Part shown: piece by piece, positions 10,246 through 15,492 of the stretch | Layout of the letters: each line of letters opens with the position of its first letter | Position numbering within the stretch: position 1 is the stretch's first letter | NCBI GenBank assembly: GCA_023663725.1 | Contig: JAMPGX010000017.1 | Coordinates: 21,189 to 85,188, forward strand | DNA length: 64,000 nucleotides | Direction: 5' to 3' | DNA from: a bacterium | GTDB taxonomy: Bacteria > Bacillota > Clostridia > Lachnospirales > Lachnospiraceae | Position numbers and translations under genes: made by a program | The notes under the pieces: model-generated | Databases searched by the model: none | Told to the model about the DNA's origin: nothing | What the model saw: the letters and a program-made list of their open reading frames with translations, nothing else

Positions 10246-10416
10246 TTACTCCTCGCTGATCGTGCCAACAGGACACTGACCAGCACATGACCCACAGGAG
10301 ATGCAGGTATCGGGATCGATCACTGCAACACCGCTATCCATGCTGATTGCGCCTACAGGACATGCACCGGCACAAGCACCGCAGCCTACACAAGCGTCAC
10401 CTACTACAAATGCCAT
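10246..10416 (-). CDS. 2[4Fe-4S] ferredoxin
   Basis: A 56-residue clostridial-type ferredoxin. The first cluster motif is CVGCGACAGACP (Cys 9, 12, 15, 19) and the second is CISCGSCAGQCP (Cys 38, 41, 44, 48), the pseudo-twofold pattern of low-potential electron carriers. The start ATG at 10416 has GGGAGG upstream. It has its own promoter at 10463-10491. It lies next to pflA, whose radical SAM chemistry needs a low-potential donor; a direct link is inference. Confidence 0.95.
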   Translation of the reverse strand: MAFVVGDACVGCGACAGACPVGAISMDSGVAVIDPDTCISCGSCAGQCPVGTISEE

Positions 10417-10494: not shown

Positions 10495-11250
10495 CTATTT
10501 TTTGTCGGCGCGCCGTTTTTTGATGCCTTCCAGAATCACTTGTTTCTTCTCCACGACCTTGTCCTTGTCCATGGCAGGGACGCCGGCCAGCTTGTAAGGA
10601 AGGCCCAGCTTTTTGTATTTGGCTTCTCCCATTGTGTGATAGGGAAGCACATCCAATGCTTTCAGGTTGTCAAACTGTCCGATGAAGTACCCCAGATCAA
10701 ACAGGTACTTGTCGTCATCAGTAATGCCCGGAACCACCACATGACGAATCCACATATCTACATGCTTCTCATTCAGGTACGCGGCGAATTCCAGAATATG
10801 CTGGTTGGGCTGAGAGGTGAGCTCCTTGTGTTTGTCGGGATCGATGTGTTTGATGTCCAGCATCACCAGATCTGTCAGGGTCATCAGCCGGTCCAGCTTT
10901 TCGAGCCAGGCGGTGTTGGAGGGATTAAAGGCAATGCCAGAGCTGTCGATACAGGTGTGTATATTTTTTTCTTTTGCAAGGGTAAACAGGTCGATCAGGA
11001 AGTCCACTTGCATCAGGGGTTCCCCGCCAGTGACGGTCAGGCCGCCGCCATTTTGATAAAAGGCGCTGTTTCTCTCATATTGCTCAATGATATAGGAGGG
11101 CTCCATCATGGTGCCGCCGTTCATCTCCCAAGTATCCGGATTGTGGCAGTAGGCGCAGCGCATGGGACATCCCTGCACAAACACGACGAAACGCGTGCCG
11201 GGGCCGTCTACTGTGCCAAAGCTCTCCAGTGAATGAATTCTTCCTTGCAT
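10495..11250 (-). CDS. pflA: Pyruvate formate-lyase activating enzyme
   Basis: A 251-residue radical SAM enzyme that uses S-adenosylmethionine and a [4Fe-4S] cluster to place the radical on the glycine of pyruvate formate-lyase. The cluster motif is CPMRCAYC (Cys 28, 32, 35), then HNPDTWEMNGG; GGLTVTGGEPLMQ is the SAM-contacting GGE motif. Length and N-terminus (GRIHSLESFGTVDGPGTRFVVF) are typical of PflA. GAAAGGAG precedes the ATG. Its substrates are the split Pfl proteins encoded 1.1-3.8 kb downstream in window coordinates. Confidence 0.96.
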   Translation of the reverse strand: MQGRIHSLESFGTVDGPGTRFVVFVQGCPMRCAYCHNPDTWEMNGGTMMEPSYIIEQYERNSAFYQNGGGLTVTGGEPLMQVDFLIDLFTLAKEKNIHTCIDSSGIAFNPSNTAWLEKLDRLMTLTDLVMLDIKHIDPDKHKELTSQPNQHILEFAAYLNEKHVDMWIRHVVVPGITDDDKYLFDLGYFIGQFDNLKALDVLPYHTMGEAKYKKLGLPYKLAGVPAMDKDKVVEKKQVILEGIKKRRADKK

Positions 11251-12358: not shown

Positions 12359-12601
12359 TCAGATCGCCTCATGGAAGGTACGGGAGATAACATCAGCCTG
12401 CTGCTCCGGAGTCAGCTTGATGAAGTTGACTGCATATCCAGAAACGCGGATTGTGAGCTGCGGATAATTCTCGGGATGAGCCTGAGCATCCAGCAGGGTA
12501 TCTCTGTTCAATACGTTTACATTCAGGTGATGGCCGCCCTTAGTAGCATAACCATCCAATAAATTTACCAGGTTGTCAACCTGTGCTGCACTTGCTGCCA
12601 T
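12359..12601 (-). CDS. Free-standing glycyl radical domain of pyruvate formate-lyase (GrcA-like)
   Basis: An 80-residue protein equal to the C-terminal domain of pyruvate formate-lyase. It contains [18 protein letters not shown], then [15 protein letters not shown] with the radical-bearing Gly at residue 55, and the end [17 protein letters not shown]. coli GrcA (YfiD) is a longer protein able to replace a damaged Pfl C-terminus. Here, however, the main Pfl gene lacks this domain, so the small protein should be the essential radical subunit, not a spare. AGGAGG precedes the ATG. 679 plus 80 residues equals the usual full Pfl length of about 760. Confidence 0.9.
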
Positions 12602-12615
12602 AGTTTTTTCCTCCT

Positions 12616-12647
12616 ATTCATAGTTCCGCTGCGGCTCAACCAGAGCC
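12616..12647. repeat. Direct repeat copy 1 in the pfl operon spacer
   Basis: ATTCATAGTTCCGCTGCGGC with the following TCAACCAGAGCC. A near-identical unit lies at 12721-12751. On the transcribed strand each unit holds the mini-hairpin GGCTC-TGGT-GAGCC. This copy ends just before the ribosome site of the 80-residue gene. Confidence 0.8.
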
Positions 12648-12720
12648 ATAAGGGGATCAATTTCCGGCTGCAAAAAGCACGCATCCGTAAATCGATCCGG
12701 CTCTGTAATGAGCCTAGCTG

Positions 12721-12751
12721 ATTCATAGTTCCGCTGCGGCTCACCAGAGCC
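12721..12751. repeat. Direct repeat copy 2 in the pfl operon spacer
   Basis: Same unit as 12616-12647 apart from one missing base. It begins 12 bp after the stop of the 66-residue gene on the transcribed strand. A third, weaker GGCTC-TGTAAT-GAGCC hairpin lies between the two copies (about 12699-12714). Confidence 0.8.
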
Positions 12752-12762
12752 GCAACAATTGT

Positions 12763-12963
12763 TTACTGGAAATCGTCCAGTCCCTGTTGCAGAGTGGGTA
12801 CGCTGCAGGCCAGAGGGGTGCGGGAGCAATCCGAGCAGCCCATGGTCTGAACGGTTTTGTTGCCCTCGATATCGTCACGGTCTACATTGATATGTCCCGT
12901 GCCGTTTGCAATGCCCTGATCGAGCATCTTTACGAGGTCGTCAATCATCTTGTTCTCGTCCAT
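12763..12963 (-). CDS. Small Cys-rich protein resembling half of a glycyl radical domain
   Basis: A 66-residue protein with an excellent ribosome site (AAGGAGG) 36 nt after the Pfl stop codon. The N-terminal half (MIDDLVKMLDQGIANGTGHINVDRD) aligns by eye with the start of the 80-residue glycyl radical protein ([20 protein letters not shown]): shared L-V-x-x-L-D, G-x-x-H-x-N-V. Where the RVSGYA loop should be there is instead MGCSDCSRTPLACS with Cys 43, 46 and 53. It cannot carry a glycyl radical. I do not recognise a named family; a regulator, a docking competitor or a metal/thiol protein are all possible. Confidence 0.7.
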   Translation of the reverse strand: MDENKMIDDLVKMLDQGIANGTGHINVDRDDIEGNKTVQTMGCSDCSRTPLACSVPTLQQGLDDFQ

Positions 12964-12999
12964 ATATACCTCCTTCTCGGCTTCGCCCCAGTGTAAATC

Positions 13000-15039
13000 T
13001 TACTTGCTCAGATCCAGCTCGATATCTCCGCTGAACACCTGATCCTCCTTGCCCAGAGCGCCGGGAATGATGGTAAAGGTATTGGAGATACCGTCCTGCG
13101 CGTCATTGAAGGGCAGCTTGGATACGGAAGACAGAGATGCCACTGCGCCATGGGTGTCACGGCCGTGCATCGGGTTAGCGCCAGGAGCGAAAGGCTGACC
13201 CTTTCTACGTCCGTCAGGCGTGTTACCGGTTGCCTTACCGTAGGTTACATTGGATGTAATGGTCAGGATGGAAGTGGTCGGGAATCCATCTCTGTAGGTA
13301 TGATGTCTTCTGATCGCGGTCATGAACTTGTGGACAACGTCCTGTGCGATGCTGTCAACGCGGTCGTCATCATTACCATACTTCGGGAAGTCTCCGGTGG
13401 TCTTGAAGTCAACGATGATACCGTCCTCATCACGAACCACTTCAACCTTTGCATACTTGATAGCGGACAGGGAGTCTGCCACGATGGACAGGCCGGCAAC
13501 GCCGGTTGCGAAGTATCTTCTCACATCTCTATCATGCAGAGCCATCTCAGCTCTCTCATAGCAGTATTTGTCATGCATGTAGTGGATGATGTTCAGGGTG
13601 TTTACATAGACATCCGCCTGCCACTCCAGCATGTCGATGAACTTGCTGTACACATCGTCGTAGTCCAGAACATCGCCGACAACGGGACGATACTTGGGGC
13701 CAACCTGTTTCTTGGTAACCTCATCCACACCGCCGTTCAGAGCGTACAACAGACATTTTGCGACATTGGCGCGAGCGCCGAAGAACTGCATCTCCTTACC
13801 GATTCTCATGGAAGATACGCAGCAGGCAATGCCGTAGTCATCTCCGTGTGTCACTCTCATCAGGTCATCATTCTCATACTGGATGGAAGAGGTGTTGATG
13901 GAGGTCTTCGCACAGAAGCGCTTAAAGCCTTCGGGCAGTCTGGTGGACCACAGCACGGTCAGGTTGGGCTCAGGTGAAGCGCCCAGATTGTACAGGGTCT
14001 GCAGATATCTGAAGCTCATTCTGGTAACCATGTGACGTCCGTCAACGCCCACACCGGCCAGAGACTCGGTTACCCATACAGGGTCGCCGGCGAAGATCTG
14101 GTTGTACTCAGGCGTACGGGCAAATTTGATCAGACGCAGCTTCATGATGAAGTGATCTACGAACTCCTGAATCTGCTCCTCGGTAAACACGCCGTTCTTC
14201 AGGTCTCTCTCTGCGTAGCAGTCGATAAAGGTGGAGGTACGTCCCAGGGACATAGCGGCGCCGTTCTGCTCCTTGACGGCGCACAGATAACCAAAGTAAG
14301 TCCACTGGATAGCTTCCTTCACATTGGCGGCGGGCTTGGAGATATCGCAACCATAGGAGGCAGCCATCTCTTTCATCAGCTTCAGGGCCACGATCTGCTC
14401 GGAGATCTCCTCGCGCAGACGGATTACGTCGTCGGTCATCACGCGTCCGGTGGAATCCTTCTGATCCTGCTTATCCTCGATCAGTCTGTCGATACCGTAC
14501 AGGGCAACTCTCCTGTAGTCGCCGATGATACGGCCACGGCCGTATGCGTCCGGCAGACCGGTAATAATATGGGAAGAACGGCAGGCTCTCATCTCCTGAT
14601 TGTATGCATCGAAGCATCCGGCATTGTGTGTCTTTCTGTGTGTGGAGAAGAACTCGCTGATCTCGGGATCAACCTCGTAGCCATTGTCGGCGCAGGCCTT
14701 CTCCGCCATACGGATGCCGCCGTAGGGCTGCAGGGATCTCTTGAAAGGCTTATCGGTCTGGAAGCCTACGATAGTCTCCTTGCTCTTGTCCAGATAGCCG
14801 GGGCCGTGGGAGGTGATGGTGGAGACAACCTTGGTGTCCATATCCAGAACGCCGCCTGCCTCTCTCTCCTGCTTCTGCAGATCCAGTACCTGTGCCCACA
14901 GATCCTTTGTGTTTTGCGTAGGGCCGGCCAGGAAAGCGTCATCCCCGTCATAGGGATGATAGTTCTTCTGGATGAAATCACGGACATTGATTTCTTTTTC
15001 CCATTTGCCGCCTACAAACTCGTTCCATTCAGGTCTCAT
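13000..15039 (-). CDS. pflB: Pyruvate formate-lyase core subunit lacking the glycyl radical domain
   Basis: A 679-residue protein covering the Pfl barrel: pyruvate plus CoA to acetyl-CoA plus formate. The active-site pair Cys406-Cys407 is in [12 protein letters not shown]. The N-terminus ([19 protein letters not shown]) and the region up to [19 protein letters not shown] match full-length Pfl. The protein then ends at DIELDLSK with a TAA, exactly where the C-terminal glycyl-radical domain would begin; the RVSGYA motif is absent. That domain is encoded separately at 12359-12601. GGAGG precedes the ATG. Transcribed from a consensus promoter at 15107-15135. Confidence 0.93.
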
Positions 15040-15300: not shown

Positions 15301-15492
15301 ATGGAAGGAATTACGAAGGAGATGACCATCGGCGAGATTCTGCGCACTAATCCGGATGTGGCTCCGATTCTGATGGAGGCGGGAATGCACTGCCTGGGCT
15401 GTCCGTCCGCTCAGGGCGAAAGTCTGGAGGACGCCGCAATGGTGCACGGCATTGACATTGATGTGTTGATGAAAAATATTAGCGAAGCATAG
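15301..15492 (+). CDS. DUF1858 redox-disulfide domain protein
   Basis: A 63-residue single-domain protein. It begins [31 protein letters not shown], with the CLGC motif at residues 31-34 and a helical tail ([21 protein letters not shown]). The family (DUF1858, also described as the hybrid-cluster-protein-associated redox disulfide domain) is frequent in anaerobes and probably does thiol or metal redox chemistry. AAGGAGG precedes the ATG. It is divergent from the pfl operon, so shared oxygen or redox control is plausible but inferred. Confidence 0.9.

Follow-up and report, generated by a model that had tools for sequence, protein, structure and literature searches.

A cysteine element alternates between a separate small protein and a tail of the core in predicted split pyruvate formate-lyases of Lachnospiraceae

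The split pyruvate formate-lyase locus

The window analysed in this study is a stretch of 64,000 nucleotides from a bacterium of the family Lachnospiraceae (GenBank assembly GCA_023663725.1, contig JAMPGX010000017.1, positions 21,189 to 85,188 of the forward strand). A row of genes on its minus strand is predicted to encode the core of a pyruvate formate-lyase (PFL), then a small cysteine-containing protein designated hereafter as s66, then the free glycyl-radical subunit GrcA3. Each of the three genes is preceded by an AGGAGG-type ribosome site, in line with an earlier interpretation made from the letters of this DNA alone (the sequence-only reading), which had given all three strong ribosome sites.

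13000..15039, minus strand: PFL core, 679 amino acids; TIGR01255 match, Cys406-Cys407 active site, Cys-free end
12763..12963, minus strand: s66, 66 amino acids; Cys43, Cys46 and Cys53, ACSVPTL..GLD in the C-terminal half, glycyl loop absent
12359..12601, minus strand: GrcA3 radical subunit, 80 amino acids; NF038360 match, RVSGYA loop with Gly55

The core matched the PFL model TIGR01255 with 1089.2 bits (cut-off 994.2), over profile positions 2–665 of 744 only; positions 665–743 were covered by the 80-residue GrcA3 and not by the core. Alignment with Escherichia coli PFL (1H16) placed core residues 4–669 against 10–681 and GrcA3 residues 9–79 against 683–758. Because these two alignments adjoin, core and GrcA3 tile one enzyme, and the aligned sequences put the split point just before the glycyl-radical domain. 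The sequence-only reading had likewise ended the core before this domain, with the active-site pair and gene coordinates given above, and had assigned the domain, with RVSGYA and Gly55, to the 80-residue gene. Whereas a PFL would have the glycyl-radical domain in the same chain, the core's own chain is devoid of it. The Cys406-Cys407 pair was present in 100/100 cores compared.

In the genome assembly to which the window belongs (3.63 Mb, 96% complete), no second PFL was found, the core having no other match at E ≤ 0.001. A second, full-length PFL, which would have spoken against an obligatory split, was thus not encountered, and the view that the radical subunit is separate in this organism held, since the only PFL match of the genome is without the domain. 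The Gly_radical family had one more match in the genome, the ribonucleotide reductase NrdD (565.2 bits, cut-off 326.35).

Conservation and homology of s66

Of 250 genomes sampled from the family, 64, among them that of the window, encode an s66 homologue (E ≤ 0.01), and core and GrcA3 genes flanked s66 on the same strand in 62 of these 64. The family-wide search that the sequence-only reading had proposed thus bore out both the gene and the gene order, and the loss of the frame in close relatives, which would have counted against a function, was not seen. The two unlinked s66 genes belong to genomes G002, where s66 is on another contig than the pfl row, and G006, where it lies in a 4.7-kb locus containing neither core nor GrcA3; no core or GrcA3 match was found in G006, a 67%-complete genome. 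These two loci (L094:3195–3401 and L097:3146–3346, respectively) resemble each other at s66 only. Among eight near copies of s66 the ratio of non-synonymous to synonymous substitution rates (dN/dS) was 0.01–0.21 across 28 pairs, so that, judged on these eight coding sequences, s66 is under purifying selection. When a narrow s66 alignment was run against a genome collection, 449 encoding stretches were returned, 80 of which were kept as the 'named set', a set therefore chosen by s66; their titles were mostly Lachnospiraceae, Acetatifactor or Eisenbergiella.

Besides M1, the residues D15, G23 and C46 were invariant in s66, and L14, H24, N26, A52, C53, P56 and T57 were conserved at 90% or more. 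Profile–profile comparison aligned s66 residues 3–32 with GrcA3 4–33 (probability 96.3, score 50.8; best of 100 column shuffles 15.3), which makes the N-terminal half of s66, a predicted helix followed by a GHxNV strand, a homologue of the segment with which the glycyl-radical domain begins. This homology was supported by a search of 291 genomes of the class, in which the s66 profile also matched, at profile positions ~1–40, the radical domains of full-length open reading frames (ORFs) of 739–779 amino acids. Thereby s66 was confirmed to be, as described, a partial radical-domain copy. The VSGYA glycyl loop occurred in 0/64 s66 proteins, and with 14.3 bits against NF038360 (cut-off 158) s66 is not a member of GrcA3. 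No curated family model was matched by s66 above its cut-off, metal-binding families included, and its profile retrieved nothing from the PDB at E ≤ 0.1 (best E 0.16). All 64 proteins contained at least two cysteines; three were present in 43/64 and only two in 20/64.

Being a partial radical-domain copy, s66 might be considered a passive relic, a decayed tandem duplicate that has lost its function. The low dN/dS values, the 449 stretches, the ribosome site of its own and the mutual exclusion with core tails described below make this the least credible of the explanations considered, one that we regard as very improbable. Likewise, a chance ORF or relic was rejected given the 64/250 genomes, the number of stretches and the dN/dS range. 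In the window the frame is open from the core into s66 past a single TAA; programmed read-through was rejected as well, the gap between the two genes being in frame in 23/57 loci with a full core, about the frequency expected by chance, and some of these 23 having further stops.

Alternation of s66 and a cysteine tail of the core

In the family, 120 regions were fetched and core ends compared at 103 loci. Split loci were found in 96 of the 250 genomes, which is a lower bound as contig-cut cores (for example that of G089) and unlisted matches fall outside the count. These 96 loci comprised 62 with s66 and a Cys-free core end, 32 with a Cys tail on the core only, two with neither form adjacent (G002, with its s66 elsewhere, and G130, with pflA between core and GrcA3) and none with both (Fisher p 2e-23, kinship ignored). 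Cores beside s66 ended ~15 residues (median) past the ALGK motif and were Cys-free there in 62/62, whereas tailed cores extended a median of 34 residues past it. Core ends with two or three cysteines were seen in 32/34 split loci that lack an adjacent s66.

The tails resemble the C-terminal half of s66. Profile comparison of the two gave a probability of 95.7 and a score of 43.1 (best of 96 shuffles 17.7), and the strict pattern Cys-x(1-2)-P-[TN] was present in 26/32 tails and 62/64 s66. The last two cysteines of the tails were separated by 3–6 residues in 18/32 and adjacent in 9/32, as in CACCEPN. Judged by these motifs, the Cys part is not confined to s66: where s66 is missing, the core of most split loci ends in a tail with a similar motif.

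The exclusion of one form by the other extended beyond the family sample. In the named set the order core-s66-GrcA3 went together with a Cys-free core end in 79/79 readable core ends (the 80th locus has no core), a result that tests only whether both forms ever occur together, the set having been chosen by s66. Outside the family, 13 of the 291 class genomes contained a free GrcA3 in a frame of 78–106 amino acids; G403, with its radical-domain match in a 191-residue frame, was left out of the counts. Of these 13 split loci, four had s66 and a Cys-free core end (G301, G355, G398 and G508; in G398 the gene order differs, s66 following GrcA3), six had a Cys tail without s66 (G328, G352, G354, G442 with CC only, G451 and G533), three had neither form in the fetched locus (G401, G439 and G501) and none had both. 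In fused PFLs the motif was mostly lacking: at class level 12/12 readable linkers, from 13 fused loci kept, were without cysteine, and 6/7 fused PFLs of the family set lacked the Cys motif. Taken together, these comparisons of sequences showed s66 to consist of a predicted radical-domain-like dock joined to a Cys-pair peptide that alternates with the Cys tail of the core.

One possible explanation for conserved cysteines at this position is a metal site, in which they would bind Zn or an Fe–S cluster, alone or with core residues, and stabilise the open site or sense oxygen. There is a likeness in NrdD, which has a Cys4 zinc site beside the glycyl loop, and the 43 s66 proteins with three cysteines would be compatible with such a site, as would core residue C429, found in 88/89 split cores and in 0/5 of the ordinary fused PFLs compared. 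Arguing against it are the 22/32 tails and 20/64 s66 proteins that have two cysteines only, the failure of s66 to match a metal family, and the presence of C429 in all six fused relatives of the split clade, five of which are without the Cys motif. We therefore consider a metal site unlikely. A special core cysteine tied to the Cys element was rejected for the last of these reasons, C429 being kept in motif-less fused relatives; core C116 was not counted because 4/5 of the ordinary fused rows are partial and gapped there.

Phylogeny of the cores

A careful tree of 99 cores contained nine changes between s66 and tail (10 in a quick tree), and its well-supported branches forced at least six changes of the s66 label and at least five of the tail label. 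In phylogenetically independent pairs the tail changed in the direction opposite to s66 or remained unchanged, and never changed in the same direction. Five fused PFLs without the Cys motif nested within the split clade. In an approximately unbiased (AU) test, the alternative placement of the fused PFLs with the fused outgroup was not rejected (p 0.145), and whether the five nested proteins arose by re-fusion is left open.

The free radical subunit

The 80-residue protein matched NCBIfam NF038360 (GrcA3) with 160.6 bits (cut-off 158) and has an intact SGYA loop. SGYAV was retained in 96/96 split-locus GrcA3 proteins, 91 reading RVSGYAV and five having I or L before the S. Fifteen additional GrcA3 genes were fetched that lie away from the pfl row, all keeping RVSGYAV; the one from G097 is at a contig edge, which makes its linkage to the pfl row unsure. 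We infer that GrcA3 damaged by oxygen could be exchanged, and the additional genes fit such a spare-part role. In G190 the extra gene, off the pfl row, is followed by thioredoxin and rubrerythrin genes (the group at L149:3049–4241) and is apparently an oxygen-stress spare part. Some genomes of the family are rich in glycyl-radical enzymes, with 22, 17 and 15 radical-domain matches in G154, G214 and G229, respectively.

Neighbouring genes and the spacer between s66 and GrcA3

10495..11250, minus strand: pflA, PFL-activating radical-SAM enzyme; TIGR02493, 295.8 bits, cut-off 231.75
10246..10416, minus strand: small 2x[4Fe-4S] ferredoxin
15301..15492, plus strand: 63-residue DUF1858/TIGR03980 'hybrid cluster protein-associated redox disulfide domain' protein, in divergent orientation to the pfl genes
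12602..12762, minus strand: spacer between s66 and GrcA3; forms highly stable RNA hairpins, contains a direct repeat of 23 nt

These neighbours recur in the named set. A pflA gene was present in 65/76 s66 loci whose sequence continues for at least 2500 nt past GrcA3, a match to the ferredoxin in 64/80, and the DUF1858/TIGR03980 gene in 48/50 loci that reach more than 900 nt upstream of the core, divergently oriented in 42/48.

The stretch 12602–12765, which includes the stop codon of s66, folds with −70 kcal/mol (z score −6). Spacers at the same place in six near relatives also form GC-rich hairpins of differing sequence (z −1.8 to −5.3), and in the wider s66 set z fell below −2 in 4/28 folded s66-GrcA3 spacers compared with 15/26 core-s66 spacers; in tail loci it did so in 6/21 folded core-GrcA3 spacers. 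The hairpins may serve in the processing or stability of the mRNA and in this way set the ratio of the subunits. The exact repeat occupies 12616–12638 and 12721–12743, and a 22-nt pattern derived from it occurred, with up to two mismatches, at these two sites of the genome only. A scan of the window against Rfam gave no match.

Structure models and proposed function

The best explanation of these data is that this PFL is made of three polypeptides: the core, an exchangeable GrcA3 and the dithiol element s66. As the N-terminal half of s66 is homologous to the beginning of the radical domain, docking at the same surface is plausible, as had been proposed. An AlphaFold2 (AF2) model of the read-through chain, in which residues 1–728 overlay chain residues 7–718 of E. 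coli PFL (2PFL) with a root-mean-square deviation of 5.4 Å over 648 residues, is weakly consistent with this, the chain being linked and the alignment shallow (41 rows).

Since the element is carried either by the core end or by a protein whose dock resembles the radical domain, we infer that it acts at the core. It would work at the opening left for the radical domain, where a tail tethered in cis needs no dock and a separate s66 would be brought in trans by its radical-domain-like helix and strand. While GrcA3 is off, either because the activating enzyme PflA is installing the radical or because a subunit damaged by oxygen is being replaced, the dithiol could reach the opened barrel and would then keep Cys406-Cys407 reduced or reversibly capped. 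A working analogy, with no homology claimed, is class I ribonucleotide reductase, in which a flexible C-terminal Cys pair serves the active-site Cys pair; we know of no reductase step that PFL turnover requires. On this analogy, a role of the dithiol element as thiol guard of Cys406-Cys407 in the open active site is the reading that we favour, as a tentative proposal to which we would give somewhat less than an even chance. In its favour are the mutual exclusion of s66 and tail, their profile similarity, the repeated changes on the tree, the two or more cysteines of every s66, the near absence of the motif from fused PFLs, the homology of the dock, and the redox-disulfide gene upstream of most named s66 loci. 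The fuller statement, that split PFLs carry a dithiol subunit or tail, interchangeable in cis and trans, which services the catalytic Cys pair while the radical subunit is off, asks for more and appears somewhat less likely.

The sequence-only reading had also considered s66 as a cap, an oxygen or metal sensor, or a competitor of GrcA3. The last of these has become less likely in its simple form because most split loci without s66 have a permanent tail in cis; such a tail, which emerges at the point where a radical domain would start, is always present and cannot act only by displacing GrcA3, and competition as the sole role of s66 was rejected on that ground. A different role would be that of an assembly handle, s66 or tail binding GrcA3 or PflA and raising the effective affinity of the detachable subunit, with the Cys pair being structural. 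The motif tracks the split and is absent from the readable class-level fused linkers; parts of the VPTL..GLD segment of s66 are almost as conserved as the cysteines; and in E. coli, according to PMC8683613, residues 696–733 of the cut PFL and the disordered N-terminal half of YfiD aid YfiD binding or activation. A handle, though, has no need of two near-invariant cysteines, some tails retain only ACCEPN or CC, and the dock of s66, being like the N-terminal half of GrcA3, should compete for one edge rather than add a contact. On balance a handle seems rather doubtful, though less so than the metal site.

The dithiol could also be a radical fuse, giving a hydrogen atom to the glycyl radical at the arrival of oxygen and so quenching it before the chain is cleaved. 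A dithiol near the radical site would suit this purpose, and the GrcA3 gene beside thioredoxin and rubrerythrin provides, in one genome, a link to oxygen stress for GrcA3 only. The cysteines, however, had no placement near Gly55 of docked GrcA3, and a permanent fuse in cis would be expected to drain the radical during normal turnover, so that we regard a fuse as improbable, more so than a metal site.

Several observations weigh against the proposed dithiol element acting on the catalytic pair. The tree offered only five independent pairs on supported branches (p 0.125), too few for significance, and the rule of at least two cysteines was fixed after the family data had been seen. Neither form was adjacent in 5/109 split loci (G002, G130, G401, G439 and G501), from which it follows that the element is not strictly needed, and the fused PFL of G096 (L132:524–2821) keeps a linker rich in cysteine where core and radical domain are joined. 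The two forms also differ: the last two cysteines are six residues apart in 58/64 s66 and 0–6 apart in tails (0 in 9/32), and two s66 proteins stop directly after CxxC and have no ACxVPTL. Within the shorter upstream flanks fetched for the family loci, the redox-disulfide neighbour was found at 32/55 s66 loci but at 5/32 tail loci only. In both AF2 models the Cys region had a predicted local distance difference test (pLDDT) score of ~25–35, leaving the cysteines unplaced relative to Cys406-Cys407. Finally, the locus in G006 indicates that s66 need not be pfl-linked and may have another use.

Relation to known systems

Among other glycyl-radical enzymes, small Cys-rich accessory proteins such as BssB/BssC and HpdC bind a [4Fe-4S] cluster and dock elsewhere. 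Like them s66 is a small Cys-containing accessory, but it has a radical-domain-like dock, mostly two or three cysteines and no family match. For E. coli YfiD, to our knowledge, no Cys-pair partner is known.

The radical subunit itself belongs to a catalogued family, as NF038360 covers the 80-residue protein, though not s66. E. coli YfiD/GrcA (6OWR) is likewise a free radical domain that completes a PFL lacking its C-terminus and, according to PMC8683613, has a disordered N-terminal half and repairs a PFL that is made whole. There the main PFL remains whole until oxygen cuts it, whereas the core described here is made without the radical domain; in contrast to a spare-part system, in which the main PFL is encoded complete, the genome of the window has a radical-domain-less core as its only PFL match. 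Nearer to the window core than E. coli PFL (963 bits) are two PDB entries named 'Formate acetyltransferase', 38LB and 38LA (1127 and 1096 bits). The chain of 38LA ends with ...SLGKED and has no radical domain, and that of 38LB continues at least with ECDMCEM. Neither entry was among the 50 matches listed for the AF2 model (library to 2026-04-08), and no free chain of the GrcA3 type other than YfiD was found in the PDB among 15 matches. In a search of open-licence full text, none of the titles listed reports either this split or the Cys element. With GrcA3 curated and the split-type cores 38LA and 38LB in the PDB, the split as such cannot be called new; what is new here is the s66 or Cys-tail element and its alternation.

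Biological significance

Many gut anaerobes rely on PFL as one of the main routes by which pyruvate is converted to acetyl-CoA and formate, and the cutting of its radical domain by oxygen is a classic weakness. A PFL with a detachable radical piece was present in at least 96 of the 250 family genomes sampled, and its combination with a switching Cys element makes it possible to test directly by what means strict anaerobes keep such an enzyme repairable. Alternation in cis and trans amounts to a built-in experiment, in which tail and s66 should be interchangeable. The Cys element appears to be a component of the enzyme that has gone unrecognised, and it may protect or serve the open active site; if this is true, it would represent a general solution for a modular, repairable glycyl-radical enzyme in strict anaerobes, and s66 would be a new family of PFL subunits.

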